From Fusobacteriia bacterium 4572_74 (GTDB lineage: Bacteria; Fusobacteriota; Fusobacteriia; Fusobacteriales; Fusobacteriaceae), in NCBI GenBank assembly GCA_002084825.1, contig NBMF01000005.1, forward strand, positions 1-34,959: a stretch of DNA of 34,959 nucleotides, given 5' to 3'. Both the position numbers and the translations under genes were made by a program. Position 1 is the stretch's first letter, and each line of letters starts with the position of its first letter. This document shows positions 26,644 through 32,228 of this stretch, piece after piece. The notes below the pieces were generated by a model. The model saw only the letters and a list, made by a program, of their open reading frames with translations. It did no database searches and was not told the origin of the DNA.

Positions 26644-27567
26644 ATGAAATTATCAAGTTATCTAAATCCTAAGTGTATATATTTAGATTTAAAAGGAGAT
26701 ACCAAGGAAGATATTATCGGTCAAATGATCGACAATACAGCTAAACACGACAAAATATTCAATAAATCTGTGGATCTGATAAGAAAAGCTGTTTTTGCTA
26801 GGGAACTAGAAGTCTCTACTGCAATGGGAAGCGGTATTGCTATTCCTCATGCTAGAATAGATGGGTACGATGATATCCTTATCTCAATAGGTATCATGAA
26901 GGAACCTATTGAATGTGATATGGCAGATATGAGAAATAAAGATCAGGTAAAAATATTTTTTATGATCACTGCCGAAACTTTAAAGAGTAAGGTCATCTTA
27001 AAGATCATGTCATCTATCACTAAGATAGCACTCAAAGATAAAGATTTATTGGAAAAATTAAAAAATGCCAAGACAGGAACTGAAGTCTATGAACTTTTAA
27101 GTCATATCAATGTAAAGATTGAAAATAAGATCACTGCTGAAGATGTTATGGACCCTACTATAAGACCAGTGAGTCCTGATGATACTCTAGATAATATAGC
27201 TAGAAGGCTTATAATAGAAGAAAAACCTGGATTCCCTGTAGTTGACGAGAATAGAAATTTTTTAGGTGAAATAACAGAAAGGGAGCTTATCTCCTATGGA
27301 ATGCCAAACTATACCTCAGTAATGGATAACCTAAATTTCTTTACTATAGGAGAACCCTTCGAAGAATATTTGAAAAATGAAAAAACAGCCACAATTGGTG
27401 ACATTTACAGAAAACAAACAATGGTTGTAGATAGAAAAACTCCTATAATGGAAATATGTCTACTCATGGTAAACAAAGGCTTTACTAGAATATATGTGGT
27501 TGAAAATGGTAAATATTTTGGAACAATCTTAAGATCACACATAATTAAAAAAGTTTTACATATATAA
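26644..27567 (+). CDS. PTS EIIA domain protein with two CBS domains
   Basis: A regulatory-looking fusion of 307 residues. Residues 1-150 form a fructose/Ntr-type EIIA domain with the phospho-accepting H69 in GSGIAIPHARID. Residues about 162-307 form a CBS pair (EDVMDPTIRPVSPDDTLDNIARRLI, then GDIYRKQTMVVDRKTPIMEICLL), a module that often binds adenine nucleotides. No EIIB or EIIC genes are near, so it is unlikely to move sugar. Instead it is followed after 19 bases by an ArsB/NhaD-type transporter, which suggests it tunes that transporter in response to PTS phosphate flow and nucleotide level. TGGAGG lies upstream of the ATG. The function is inferred. Confidence 0.88.
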   Translation: MKLSSYLNPKCIYLDLKGDTKEDIIGQMIDNTAKHDKIFNKSVDLIRKAVFARELEVSTAMGSGIAIPHARIDGYDDILISIGIMKEPIECDMADMRNKDQVKIFFMITAETLKSKVILKIMSSITKIALKDKDLLEKLKNAKTGTEVYELLSHINVKIENKITAEDVMDPTIRPVSPDDTLDNIARRLIIEEKPGFPVVDENRNFLGEITERELISYGMPNYTSVMDNLNFFTIGEPFEEYLKNEKTATIGDIYRKQTMVVDRKTPIMEICLLMVNKGFTRIYVVENGKYFGTILRSHIIKKVLHI

Positions 27568-27586
27568 TTTTAGGAGGAAAGAAAAG

Positions 27587-28861
27587 ATGCAATTAACGAT
27601 AGGTTTAATTATATTTATAACAACATTTTATTTGATAATAACAGAAAAAGTTCCTGCTCCTATAGCCACTCTCTTAGGTGGTCTTTCCATGACACTTGTA
27701 GGGATTATAAACGAGCATGAAGCACTGCATGCTATTGGCTCACGACTAGAAATAATCCTCCTACTAGTAGGAATGATGATAATAGTTCATTTCATCTCAG
27801 AGACTGGGGTATTCCAATATTTAGCAGTAAAGGTAGCACAATTAGTTAAGGGGGAGCCCTTTCCCTTGCTGATACTTTTGGCAATAATTACGGCACTCTG
27901 TTCAGCATTTTTAGACAATGTAACCACTATTTTACTCATGGCACCAGTATCTATCTTACTGGCAAATCAGCTAAAAGTAGATCCATTTGTATATATTATG
28001 ACCCTTATAATGTCAGCCAATATAGGTGGATTAGCTACATTGATCGGTGATCCTACTCAGCTTATTATAGGAGCAGAGGGAAAACTTGGTTTCAATGATT
28101 TCTTGGTTAATACAGCTCCAATTTCCATTATTTCAATGATTGTGCTTCTTGTTACAGTTTATTTTATGTATGGTAGAAAGATGAAGGTCTCTAGAGATCT
28201 AAAAGCTAGAATAATGGAACTTGATGCATCTAGATCCTTAAAAAATATTAAATTGTTACAGGAATCAGCTACGATTTTTGCTCTAGTAATATTTGGATTT
28301 TTAATGAATAATTTCATTGATAAGGGATTAGCTATTATGGCTCTTACTGGTGCAGTTGCATTAATATTAATAACAAAAACAGAGCCTGTAGAAATTTTTA
28401 AACATGTAGAATGGGACACACTATTTTTCTTTATGGGATTATTTATGTTGATTCAAGGGATAGAATCCACAGGAATTGTAGATCTTATAGGAAATAAAGT
28501 TTTAGAAATAGCTGATGGTCATTTATATTATGCAACAACTATGATACTTTGGGTTTCGGCTGCTTTCACCTCTATTATAGGGAATGTAGCTAATGCCGCT
28601 ATGGTTTCTAAGATCATCCATTTTATGCTTCCTACTTTTTCAGAGGGAAATACTATAGCTCTTTGGTGGGCATTATCTATGGGATCGTTATTAGGCGGGA
28701 ACATCACTATTTTGGCATCAGCAACCAATGTGGTAGCTATAAACTCTGCTAATAAGGCAGGATGTAAAATCAGTTTTGGTAAATTTATGAAGTTTGGTCT
28801 CATAATAGCTGTCCAGACCTTAGTTATAGCTAATATCTATCTATTTTTTAAATATTTTTAA
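27587..28861 (+). CDS. ArsB/NhaD-type ion transporter
   Basis: Inner-membrane transporter of the IT superfamily, 424 residues with about 11 helices. Family segments are SAFLDNVTTILLMAPVSILLA, SANIGGLATLIGDPTQLIIG and a matching second half with TSIIGNVANAAM and GGNITILASATNVVA. Members exchange sodium for protons (NhaD), export arsenite (ArsB) or carry anions. No arsR or arsC is near, so arsenite export is not favoured; sodium/proton exchange would fit a sodium-using fusobacterium. AGGAGGAAAG lies before the ATG. It is cotranscribed with the EIIA-CBS gene. Confidence 0.87.
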   Translation: MQLTIGLIIFITTFYLIITEKVPAPIATLLGGLSMTLVGIINEHEALHAIGSRLEIILLLVGMMIIVHFISETGVFQYLAVKVAQLVKGEPFPLLILLAIITALCSAFLDNVTTILLMAPVSILLANQLKVDPFVYIMTLIMSANIGGLATLIGDPTQLIIGAEGKLGFNDFLVNTAPISIISMIVLLVTVYFMYGRKMKVSRDLKARIMELDASRSLKNIKLLQESATIFALVIFGFLMNNFIDKGLAIMALTGAVALILITKTEPVEIFKHVEWDTLFFFMGLFMLIQGIESTGIVDLIGNKVLEIADGHLYYATTMILWVSAAFTSIIGNVANAAMVSKIIHFMLPTFSEGNTIALWWALSMGSLLGGNITILASATNVVAINSANKAGCKISFGKFMKFGLIIAVQTLVIANIYLFFKYF

Positions 28862-28924: not shown

Positions 28925-29488
28925 TTATTCTATTTTAATATCAAAATCTCTTACTAAGCCCACCAAGTCAGGGAGGGAAAATTTAGCTCCTTTAATACGA
29001 TTTATCAGAGGGTTAATCCTATAATTAACAGCACCTTTAAAGTTAGCTCTCTCTAAATTACATTTATCAAAAGATGATCCCTCTAAATCTGAGTTATTGA
29101 AAACAGCCTGGCTAAGGTTGGTTTCAAAAAACAGACATTCTTTAAAAGTAGAATTTAAAAGATCGGTCTTTTGTAGATCTAACTTGCTGAGATCGCAGTA
29201 TTTTAAGTAGGAGTTATAAAAAGCAACCTCTATTATAAATTGATTGATGTGACTTAGATGGATACTGATTAGTTCAGAATTTTCAAAATTTACCTCTATA
29301 AATTTTGCATCATAGAAGGTAGAAGAAATTAACTGACACGATTTAAAAATACATTTTTCTAATGTAGTTCCATTAAAACTTATCTTATCAAAAGTTATAC
29401 CTCTAAAAACACAACTTAAAAATTCACTATTTTCAAAAGTTAATAGCTCTATATCTTCTTTGGTAAAGATCATATCTTCGTAATACAT
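28925..29488 (-). CDS. Pentapeptide-repeat protein
   Basis: The 187 residues form a series of pentapeptide repeats (pattern A/C/S/T/L/V, D/N, L/F, S/T/R, x) from about 20 to 155, for example FENSEFLSCVF and ANFKGAV, so it should fold as a right-handed beta helix. The C-terminal NYRINPLINRIKGAKFSLPD segment is shared with a group that includes McbG- and Qnr-related proteins, which imitate DNA and protect gyrase; this protein is not close enough on sight to claim that. No signal peptide or membrane helix, so cytosolic. GAGGAAGTGAT lies before the ATG. It is a single-gene unit. Confidence 0.87.
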   Translation of the reverse strand: MYYEDMIFTKEDIELLTFENSEFLSCVFRGITFDKISFNGTTLEKCIFKSCQLISSTFYDAKFIEVNFENSELISIHLSHINQFIIEVAFYNSYLKYCDLSKLDLQKTDLLNSTFKECLFFETNLSQAVFNNSDLEGSSFDKCNLERANFKGAVNYRINPLINRIKGAKFSLPDLVGLVRDFDIKIE

Positions 29489-29792: not shown

Positions 29793-29821
29793 TTGACTTA
29801 AAATAGAAAGAAGGTTATGAT
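29793..29821 (+). promoter_or_regulatory. Sigma70 promoter of the OPT-PqqD unit
   Basis: TTGACT (29793-29798), 17 bases, TATGAT (29816-29821). The transcript would start about 46 bases before the OPT start codon. A short palindrome TTGTACAA follows the -10 box and could be an operator. Confidence 0.75.
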
Positions 29822-29873: not shown

Positions 29874-31790
29874 ATGAACGAAATGAAACGTCAATTTAAA
29901 CCTTTTGTATCTATGGATACAGCGATGTCAGAAACTACAACAGTTTCTATAGGATTAGGAATCTTATTTGCAGTAATCTTTGCAGTATCAAATGTATATT
30001 TAGGGTTAAAAACAGGAATAACAATTGCAGCAGCAATTCCAGCTTCAATATTAGGAACAGGAATCTTAAAGGCAATATTTAAAAGAGATTCTATATTAGA
30101 AGCCAACTTAGTAGCTTCAGTAGCCGCAGTAGGAGAGTCTATTGCAGGTGGAATCATCTTTACACTACCGGCTATTATTATATGGGGACATGACTTAAGC
30201 ATGGTCTCTATTGGAATTATAACTATATTAGGTGGATTAATCGGGACTTTATTCGTAATTCCATTTAGAGAATATCTAATAGTTGAAGAACACGGAGTAT
30301 TGATGTTCCCTGAATCAATAGCAGCTTATGAGATCCTAGTAAATGCTAATAAAGGTGGAGAAGGATTTAAAACTGTATTGAAAGGTTTAGGAATCGGAGG
30401 AGCTTTCAAATTTCTATCTGGTGGATTAGGACTTTGGTCAGAAGGACCAGTTTGGGCTATTACAAAGTTGGGAACAGCTTTTGGATTTAGTGCAGTAGCA
30501 TCATTATTAGGAGTAGGATTTATCGTAGGAACTGGAGTAGCTATCTTAATGTTCTCTGGAGCATTATTAGCATGGTTTGGTTTCATACCATTAATTAAGT
30601 TTATAGGTGCCGGAGCTACAAGCCCTATATTCCCAGCAACTCAATTAATATCAGATATGTCAGCTATATCTATCTGGTCTAACTATATTAGATATATAGG
30701 TGCCGGAGCAGTAGCAACAGGTGGATTTATCTCATTAGCTAAATCAGCACCAGCTATCATCAGCTCTTTCAAAGAAGCTATAAAAGGTTTAAAAACAGAA
30801 AAAACTGCCCATAAAATTGAAAGACAACATATCGATACTCCACTAACATTTGTTGGAGCAGGAGCTATCGCAGTATTCTTAATAGTATGGTTATTACCAT
30901 TATCAGTAGGAATACCTAAAGTAGGATTTATCGTTTCATTCTTAGTAATATTCTTCTCATTCTTCTTCGGTGTAGTATCGGCTAGAATGACTGGAATCAT
31001 GGGTGCATCAAATAACCCTGTATCTGGAATGACTATCGCATCATTATTAGTAATCGCATCAGTTATCAAAGCATCTGGTATAGATCCTGAATTAGGAAAA
31101 ATCATGGCTATCATAGCTGCCGGTGTAGTTTGTATTTCAATTGCAACTTCTGGTGGAGTAGCACAAAGCTTAAAGCATACATACTTAATTGGTGGAACAC
31201 CAAAAAAAATCGAGTGGTCAATGTTTGCTGGATTAATAGTAGCAGCATTTGCAGCTGGTGGAGTAGTTCTTATGCTGCATAAAGCTTTTGGATTAGGATC
31301 AGCAGACGTTCCTGCACCTCAAGCTGGATTAATGAAGATGTTGTCTGAAGGTGTTATGACAGGAGAAATCCCTTGGACATTAGTTATTATTGGTGTAGCT
31401 ATCGGTATACTTATTAACTTCTTAGGATTACCTATCTTACCTATCGCTTTAGGATTATACTTACCAATTCAATTATCATCAGCTATCTTAACTGGAGCAT
31501 TGGTAAGAGAAGTTGTTGAGATGAAATTTAAGAAAAATTTAACAGAGCAAAAAAGAAGAATAGAGAAAGGTATCTTATTATCTTCTGGATTAGTTGCTGG
31601 AGATGCTTTAATAGGTATCTTATTAGCAATATTCATCACTTTAGGAAAGGATTTATCATCATTTGGAAGAAAATTTGGAGCTATCACTTCAAATTCTACT
31701 ATAGGATTTATAGTCTTCATAGCATTAGCCGTTTGGGTATATACCCAAGTAGTTTCTGGAAAATCTTCAGATGAAGAATTACCTGAATAA
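29874..31790 (+). CDS. OPT family oligopeptide transporter
   Basis: Inner-membrane symporter of the oligopeptide transporter family, 638 residues with about 15 helices, taking up short peptides or metal-chelate compounds. Family marks are the N-terminal YLGLKTGITIAAAIPASILG segment, EANLVASVAAVGESIAGGIIFTLPA and GASNNPVSGMTIASLL. The long loop at about 297-325 (KEAIKGLKTEKTAHKIERQ) is cytosolic and charged. Length is normal for bacterial members. AGGAGGAAAG lies before the ATG. The next gene, 39 bases downstream, encodes a PqqD-like protein. Specificity is unknown. Confidence 0.93.
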   Translation: MNEMKRQFKPFVSMDTAMSETTTVSIGLGILFAVIFAVSNVYLGLKTGITIAAAIPASILGTGILKAIFKRDSILEANLVASVAAVGESIAGGIIFTLPAIIIWGHDLSMVSIGIITILGGLIGTLFVIPFREYLIVEEHGVLMFPESIAAYEILVNANKGGEGFKTVLKGLGIGGAFKFLSGGLGLWSEGPVWAITKLGTAFGFSAVASLLGVGFIVGTGVAILMFSGALLAWFGFIPLIKFIGAGATSPIFPATQLISDMSAISIWSNYIRYIGAGAVATGGFISLAKSAPAIISSFKEAIKGLKTEKTAHKIERQHIDTPLTFVGAGAIAVFLIVWLLPLSVGIPKVGFIVSFLVIFFSFFFGVVSARMTGIMGASNNPVSGMTIASLLVIASVIKASGIDPELGKIMAIIAAGVVCISIATSGGVAQSLKHTYLIGGTPKKIEWSMFAGLIVAAFAAGGVVLMLHKAFGLGSADVPAPQAGLMKMLSEGVMTGEIPWTLVIIGVAIGILINFLGLPILPIALGLYLPIQLSSAILTGALVREVVEMKFKKNLTEQKRRIEKGILLSSGLVAGDALIGILLAIFITLGKDLSSFGRKFGAITSNSTIGFIVFIALAVWVYTQVVSGKSSDEELPE

Positions 31791-31829
31791 TAAAAATTAA
31801 TAAGCTATACTTAAAACAAGGAGTAAAGA

Positions 31830-32171
31830 ATGAAAAAAAATGAGGAAAATTTTCTAGATATTATCCCTATAAAACTTCATTTGGATTGTAAAAGACAGGA
31901 TGGGAACACCCATCTTGTCTTTACCCATACTAGTTTTCTTCAAAAAACTTTGAGGTGGATGACTAAAAAATCTAATACTAGTACTCTAGAATTGAATGGA
32001 TTGGGTAGTTTAGTATGGGAGAATATCGATGGAAAAAACACAATATATGACATCATTAATATTCTTTTGGAAATAGAGGAAGATAACTATGAATCTATGC
32101 AGCAAAGAGTATTTATGTTTATCAGAATATTAAAAAACAGAAAAATAATTGCTTTTAAAGAATTTGATTAG
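31830..32171 (+). CDS. PqqD-like protein paired with the OPT transporter
   Basis: A 113-residue cytosolic protein. The C-terminal two thirds has the PqqD fold pattern (a winged-helix peptide-binding domain, also called RRE in peptide natural product systems): STLELNGLGSLVWENIDGKN (about 52-71), TIYDIINILL, then EDNYESMQQRVFMFIRILKN ending KIIAF. The N-terminal third has short beta strands. No radical SAM enzyme, protease or precursor peptide is nearby, so it is an orphan of the kind also seen beside OPT transporters in some clostridia. GGAG is seven bases before the ATG. It may bind the N-terminus of an imported peptide or regulate the transporter; function unknown. Confidence 0.82.
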   Translation: MKKNEENFLDIIPIKLHLDCKRQDGNTHLVFTHTSFLQKTLRWMTKKSNTSTLELNGLGSLVWENIDGKNTIYDIINILLEIEEDNYESMQQRVFMFIRILKNRKIIAFKEFD

Positions 32172-32183
32172 AAGTATAATATC

Positions 32184-32228
32184 AGAAAAAAACTCCTATA
32201 AAACACAGTTTTGTAGGAGTTTTTTTCT
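32184..32228. terminator. Bidirectional terminator between the PqqD-like gene and the penicillin-binding protein gene
   Basis: A 13-bp stem with one G-U pair (32192-32204 with 32208-32220) has A-runs before and T-runs after it in both directions. It ends the OPT-PqqD unit on the plus strand and the penicillin-binding protein gene on the minus strand. Confidence 0.92.

Follow-up and report, generated by a model that had tools for sequence, protein, structure and literature searches.

A PqqD-like protein encoded beside an OPT-family peptide transporter in Fusobacteriota and Bacillota

PqqD-like domains, or RiPP recognition elements (RREs), are treated as a signature of the biosynthesis of ribosomal peptide natural products, in which they bind leader peptides. 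Why, then, would a fusobacterial genome encode one directly after an oligopeptide transporter, with no modification enzyme beside it? The question arose from a sequence-only reading of a 34,959-nucleotide stretch of DNA (the window) from a Psychrilyobacter-like Fusobacteriota metagenome-assembled genome, which proposed that the two genes share one promoter and one terminator and that a peptide-binding partner or sensor of an uptake transporter would be a new use of this fold. We find that in many anaerobic bacteria this small protein is tied, gene beside gene, to a peptide-uptake transporter and often to a peptidase. This suggests that the fold has very probably been reused for feeding on peptides rather than for making them, although association is what the analysis demonstrates and function is inferred.

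The window lies in a 62.65% complete draft genome whose nearest relatives are Psychrilyobacter-type Fusobacteriaceae. The two genes are on the same strand, 39 nt apart (Table 1), and the arrangement that had been described is confirmed. No terminator-like site lies between them on the coding strand. The proposed single promoter is plausible but unproven, as it is only a consensus match and such matches are no commoner in the window than expected by chance (18 found, 24.5 expected). No open reading frame (ORF) of at least 150 amino acids in the window carries a radical SAM CX3CX2C motif, no other complete ORF of at least 20 amino acids lies on the + strand between the end of the transporter gene and the terminator-like hairpin (precursor genes were not sought systematically downstream of other loci), and an Rfam search of the window found no RNA element. 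The PqqD-like protein has no transmembrane stretch. Both genes are under purifying selection within the genus (dN/dS about 0.1 for the PqqD-like gene and 0.11-0.15 for OPT).

Table 1. Features of the two-gene unit and its neighbours, and positions of a further small gene at other loci (L numbers denote examined loci)
Stretch	Position	Strand	Feature	Basis
Window	29874..31790	+	OPT-family oligopeptide transporter gene (638 aa)	Pfam PF03169 3e-88; NCBIfam TIGR00733 303.4 bits over an equivalog cut-off of 182.5; ribosome-binding site AGGAGG just upstream
Window	31830..32171	+	OPT-type PqqD-like (RRE-fold) protein gene (113 aa)	Pfam PF05402 29.1 bits over a gathering cut-off of 23.4, residues 52-107; ribosome-binding site AAGGAG; PDB profile matches (text)
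Window	31929..31976	+	Codons for the cationic amphipathic stretch (residues 34-49), predicted helix inserted between strands 2 and 3	Family alignment and hydrophobic moments; helix 36-45 in a low-confidence AF2 model
Window	32106..32108	+	Codon of Arg93	Family alignments (text)
Window	32185..32227	+	Intrinsic terminator-like hairpin ending the two-gene unit	20-pair stem, T-rich arm
Window	29793..29821	+	Possible sigma-70 promoter (TTGACT-17-TATGAT)	10 of 12 consensus match, not above chance
Window	28925..29488 and 26644..28861	- and +	Left neighbours: a pentapeptide-repeat-like ORF, and a PTS-IIA/CBS-like protein followed by an ArsB/NhaD-type transporter	By reading only
L136	6330..6701		Further small gene
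L219	4522..4881		Further small gene
L229	4312..4671		Further small gene
L238	3907..4257		Further small gene

The absence of any statistical association between the two genes had been named in advance as a result that would refute the proposal. We counted their adjacency in three genome samples. Among 98 Fusobacteriota genomes the PqqD-like protein occurs in 13, and OPT relatives of at least 52% identity occur in the same 13 (in one, G058, the OPT gene is split by a contig end; G numbers denote genomes in our samples). Every copy whose context was read follows OPT directly, sometimes with overlapping reading frames, and one genome (G002) has a second OPT without it. In 348 Bacillota genomes, 22 have a strong hit, of which 21 also have an OPT over the TIGR00733 cut-off, although only 40 of the 348 genomes do (Fisher p 1e-21); 16 are adjacent. 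In 391 genomes of one Bacillota class, which share only four carrier genomes with the previous sample, 82 of 88 copies lie directly downstream of OPT on the same strand and 84 of 86 carrier genomes have OPT (Fisher p 2e-69). Two of the six exceptions (G735 and G484) are contig breaks: one copy starts at a contig end and in the other an OPT fragment precedes it. These p-values treat related genomes as independent and so overstate significance, and phyla other than these two were not sampled. Searches of viral contigs and plasmids for the PqqD-like protein found nothing. The pairing is far beyond chance, contrary to the refuting result named in advance, and is not a peculiarity of this genome but a class-wide conserved operon.

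The association is not absolute. Some OPTs of the same branch lack the PqqD-like gene (7 genomes in the 348-genome sample; G720, G776, G807 and others in the 391-genome sample), so it is not strictly needed for every OPT. Conversely, one carrier in the first Bacillota sample (G111) and two in the second (G531 and G546) have no detected OPT, although drafts may be incomplete. Where the genes have separated, most genomes still hold both, as in G210, G179, G431, G140 and G255.

Evidence from trees is separate from these counts. An OPT tree of 51 sequences shows the PqqD link spread over one large part of the family, with losses and separate PqqD-free branches, and a tree of the PqqD-like proteins mirrors it (pairwise distance correlation r 0.82, reached in 0 of 2000 permutations). 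Part of that correlation comes from the shared ancestry of the organisms, but two details go beyond it. In the Fusobacteriota genomes G013 and G049, both proteins group with those of the Bacillota genomes G308 and G192 and not with other Fusobacteriota, and in all four the gene order is PepD dipeptidase, OPT, PqqD-like; the trio seems to have moved between phyla as a unit. In G210, G179 and G431 the PqqD-like gene has left the operon and follows a gene with copper-amine-oxidase N-terminal and NAGPA domains, while OPT is followed by an alanine-dehydrogenase-like gene. Nevertheless, these OPTs group with that of G331 with full support, and the PqqD-like proteins lie next to that of G331.

M20 dipeptidases are a recurrent third member of these loci, a feature that the sequence-only reading had not described. 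M20 genes lie on the same strand within 4 kb at 21 of 72 examined OPT-PqqD loci (about 30%), a lower bound because some stretches are short; the background rate was not measured, and in the window itself no dipeptidase is next to the pair. NCBIfam names the tested ones PepV (578-606 bits over 435) or beta-Ala-His dipeptidase/PepD type (553-573 bits over 344). Other loci have an M29 aminopeptidase or alanine dehydrogenase, and OPT genes without a PqqD-like neighbour also sit beside PepD-type or M29-type genes. In G140 the PqqD-like gene, of the OPT type, follows a cluster that reads as an Opp-type ABC peptide transporter with its binding protein (by sequence inspection, not by profile), and the OPT of this genome is on another contig. 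The common denominator is peptide import and hydrolysis. A possible fourth member is a further small gene (114-134 aa) encoding one hydrophobic N-terminal segment and a soluble part with weak winged-helix matches, with no NCBIfam hit and no Pfam hit over cut-off in the four tested. It sits right after the PqqD-like gene in seven loci (L136, L137, L219, L225, L229, L230 and L238) and after OPT in L236, where no PqqD-like ORF was called, often before an M20 or M29 peptidase.

In two genomes (G445 and G410) the PqqD-like and PepV reading frames are continuous. We considered whether these open frames prove a physical fusion, but this idea was weakened by an internal ATG that keeps its own ribosome-binding site in both, such that both a joined and a separate product are possible. 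In addition, the PepV parts are 98% identical in protein behind PqqD parts that are 41% identical, whereas the OPT parts are about 71% identical in DNA, so a recombination boundary lies near the PqqD-PepV junction. An order-level search around G410 found three separate copies beside the two joined ones; the PepV open frame is therefore rare.

The protein has the PqqD/RRE core by sequence. All 32 aligned family members match Pfam PqqD (E<0.01) and none matches a helix-turn-helix (HTH) family. The family profile finds PqqD 3g2b (3e-5), PqqCD 5sxy and the RRE chains 9x90 (lasso RRE chain 9x90_B, 3e-5), 5v1u and 9x8z in the PDB. An AlphaFold model built from six sequences is of low confidence (pLDDT 57) and is used only as support, but its order of elements (two strands, helix, strand, three helices) is that of PqqD with an extra helix between strands 2 and 3, and the best Foldseek hits are to the TbiB1 RRE, with other RREs and PqqD further down. 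The extra stretch (TSFLQKTLRWMTKKS in the window) is net positive in nearly all members and has a high hydrophobic moment in most.

A second family-specific feature is a single residue on helix 3, the peptide-binding helix of RREs. Position 93 of the window protein is Arg in 97% of 78 unique OPT-type sequences, including the copies that left the OPT operon in G210, G140 and G255 and that of G531, in which no OPT was detected; the divergent copies in G111 and G546 have Ser and Lys. Eight other PqqD relatives from these Bacillota genomes have Asp, Glu or Asn there, and 3g2b and TbiB1 have Asp. By counting from the shared core Trp, this is the position of Asp79 in PadeB1, at which Ala costs about 28-fold in leader binding (Kd 5.3 to 150 nM; PMC5067487). 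The mapping rests on an ungapped alignment of helices 1-3 and not on a structure, and the use of this residue to separate the family from RREs of RiPP maturation is our own criterion rather than a published definition. The near-invariant Arg implies a different ligand from a RiPP leader, for example a peptide carboxylate or an acidic transporter segment.

The analysis establishes that the protein is co-encoded, co-inherited and co-evolving with one branch of bacterial OPT transporters in Fusobacteriota and Bacillota, often together with M20 dipeptidases, and that it belongs to the PqqD family by sequence; what it does is our inference. We hypothesize that it is a dedicated cytosolic, possibly membrane-surface-bound, accessory protein of peptide import. 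Its winged-helix core would bind an extended peptide segment in the groove between strand 3 and helix 3, as RREs do, and its cationic amphipathic helix would dock it to the membrane or to the inner face of OPT. The bound segment would be either the peptide just imported, which the protein retains and hands to the dipeptidase, or a cytosolic tail or loop of OPT, which it would use to gate transport. Delivery of a peptide to a protease has a precedent in PadeB1, which hands its peptide to the separate protease PadeB2 (PMC5067487). We consider this mechanism somewhat more likely than not, in the absence of binding, localisation or transport data and with the substrate of these OPTs unproven and supported only indirectly by peptidase neighbours, whereas we are highly confident that the protein belongs functionally with OPT, whatever the mechanism. 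Nothing suggests peptide modification. The sequence-only interpretation is thus partly supported: the protein belongs to the transporter and not to a RiPP cluster, but the data do not decide between partner and sensor, and a peptide hand-off or chaperone role fits the dipeptidase link at least as well as sensing.

Of the alternatives, a purely structural or assembly factor for OPT (folding, membrane insertion or stability) without a peptide ligand is unlikely but the strongest. Near-obligatory co-occurrence, tree congruence and a cationic stretch suited to a membrane surface or an OPT loop would fit, but OPTs of the same branch occur without the protein, and its position after the Opp-type cluster in G140 and in frame with PepV in two genomes points to peptides rather than to OPT alone. 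Slightly less likely still is a DNA-binding winged-helix autoregulator of the operon. RRE folds resemble HTH domains, non-RiPP ‘discrete lasso’ RRE hits may be DNA-binding (PMC7470986) and a small gene in an operon is a common place for a regulator. However, all 32 aligned members match PqqD and none matches an HTH family, the protein is co-retained and co-evolves with OPT even when unlinked from its operon, open-frame joins to PepV are unusual for a regulator, and its usual place is after the transporter, often touching or overlapping it.

A true RRE of an undiscovered RiPP pathway, acting with a distant radical SAM or other enzyme and with OPT importing or recycling the product, is very unlikely. 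The PqqD core and core Trp are kept and nearly all carriers have some SPASM protein. Action with a distant radical SAM enzyme had been named beforehand as the other outcome that would overturn the proposal, but SPASM radical SAM genes do not track the PqqD-like gene in Fusobacteriota: 50 of 98 genomes have one, including many non-carriers, and none was found in carrier G061, which is 81% complete (RiPP enzymes other than radical SAM were not examined genome-wide). The only SPASM genes close to a carrier locus, in G175, looked like a counter-example but are of the heme NirJ/Ahb type, and carriers such as G236 and G140 hold separate PqqD paralogues beside SPASM genes. The lack of a precursor ORF in the transcript and the Arg in place of the helix 3 Asp/Glu of RiPP RREs also argue against this reading.

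A more far-reaching possibility, which we regard as tentative and less likely than not, is that an ‘Arg-type’ branch of the RRE/PqqD fold serves nutrition instead of biosynthesis, catching peptides as OPT releases them into the cytosol and channelling them to an M20 dipeptidase, so that import and hydrolysis form one physical unit. Genome miners count PqqD-like domains as hints of new natural products; here, a large, well-defined subfamily is tied to peptide import and breakdown instead, with a one-residue signature and an inserted stretch that tell it apart. This could explain some unexplained stand-alone RRE hits, gives a poorly characterised bacterial transporter family a partner to test and makes the question of what else RRE folds do directly testable in cultured Fusobacteriota and Clostridia. 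A search of 5.39 million open papers, which excluded subscription papers and preprints, found none that treats PqqD-like proteins together with OPT transporters or dipeptidases. Gene-neighbourhood databases would show the pairing to anyone who looked, so we do not claim priority; the fold family is known and its setting here is new.

Several thousand stand-alone RRE-like proteins without lasso machinery, possibly DNA-binding or from unknown RiPPs, have been reported with RRE-Finder (PMC7470986), a pool into which such proteins may fall; we found no link to OPT or dipeptidases in that report and did not test whether these proteins are among its hits. The transporter is a clear member of the TIGR00733 branch of the OPT family, for which the family descriptions used here record no small soluble partner, and only some branches have one. 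With PqqD, the peptide chaperone of PQQ synthesis (PDB 3g2b and 5sxy), the protein shares the winged-helix core and the LDxxGxxxW...DG motif region. It differs in scoring far below the NCBIfam equivalog cut-off (TIGR03859, 20.7 versus 46 bits), in having no PqqA or PqqE nearby, in Arg for Asp on helix 3 and in the inserted amphipathic stretch. The discrete lasso-peptide RREs TbiB1 (5v1u) and PadeB1 are likewise stand-alone and are the nearest structures by fold search, and peptide delivery by PadeB1 is a mechanistic analogue. Here, however, there is no lasso protease or cyclase, the NCBIfam lasso model (NF033536) scores 20.9 versus 80 bits, D79 of PadeB1 corresponds to the near-invariant Arg, and the partners are a transporter and M20 dipeptidases.
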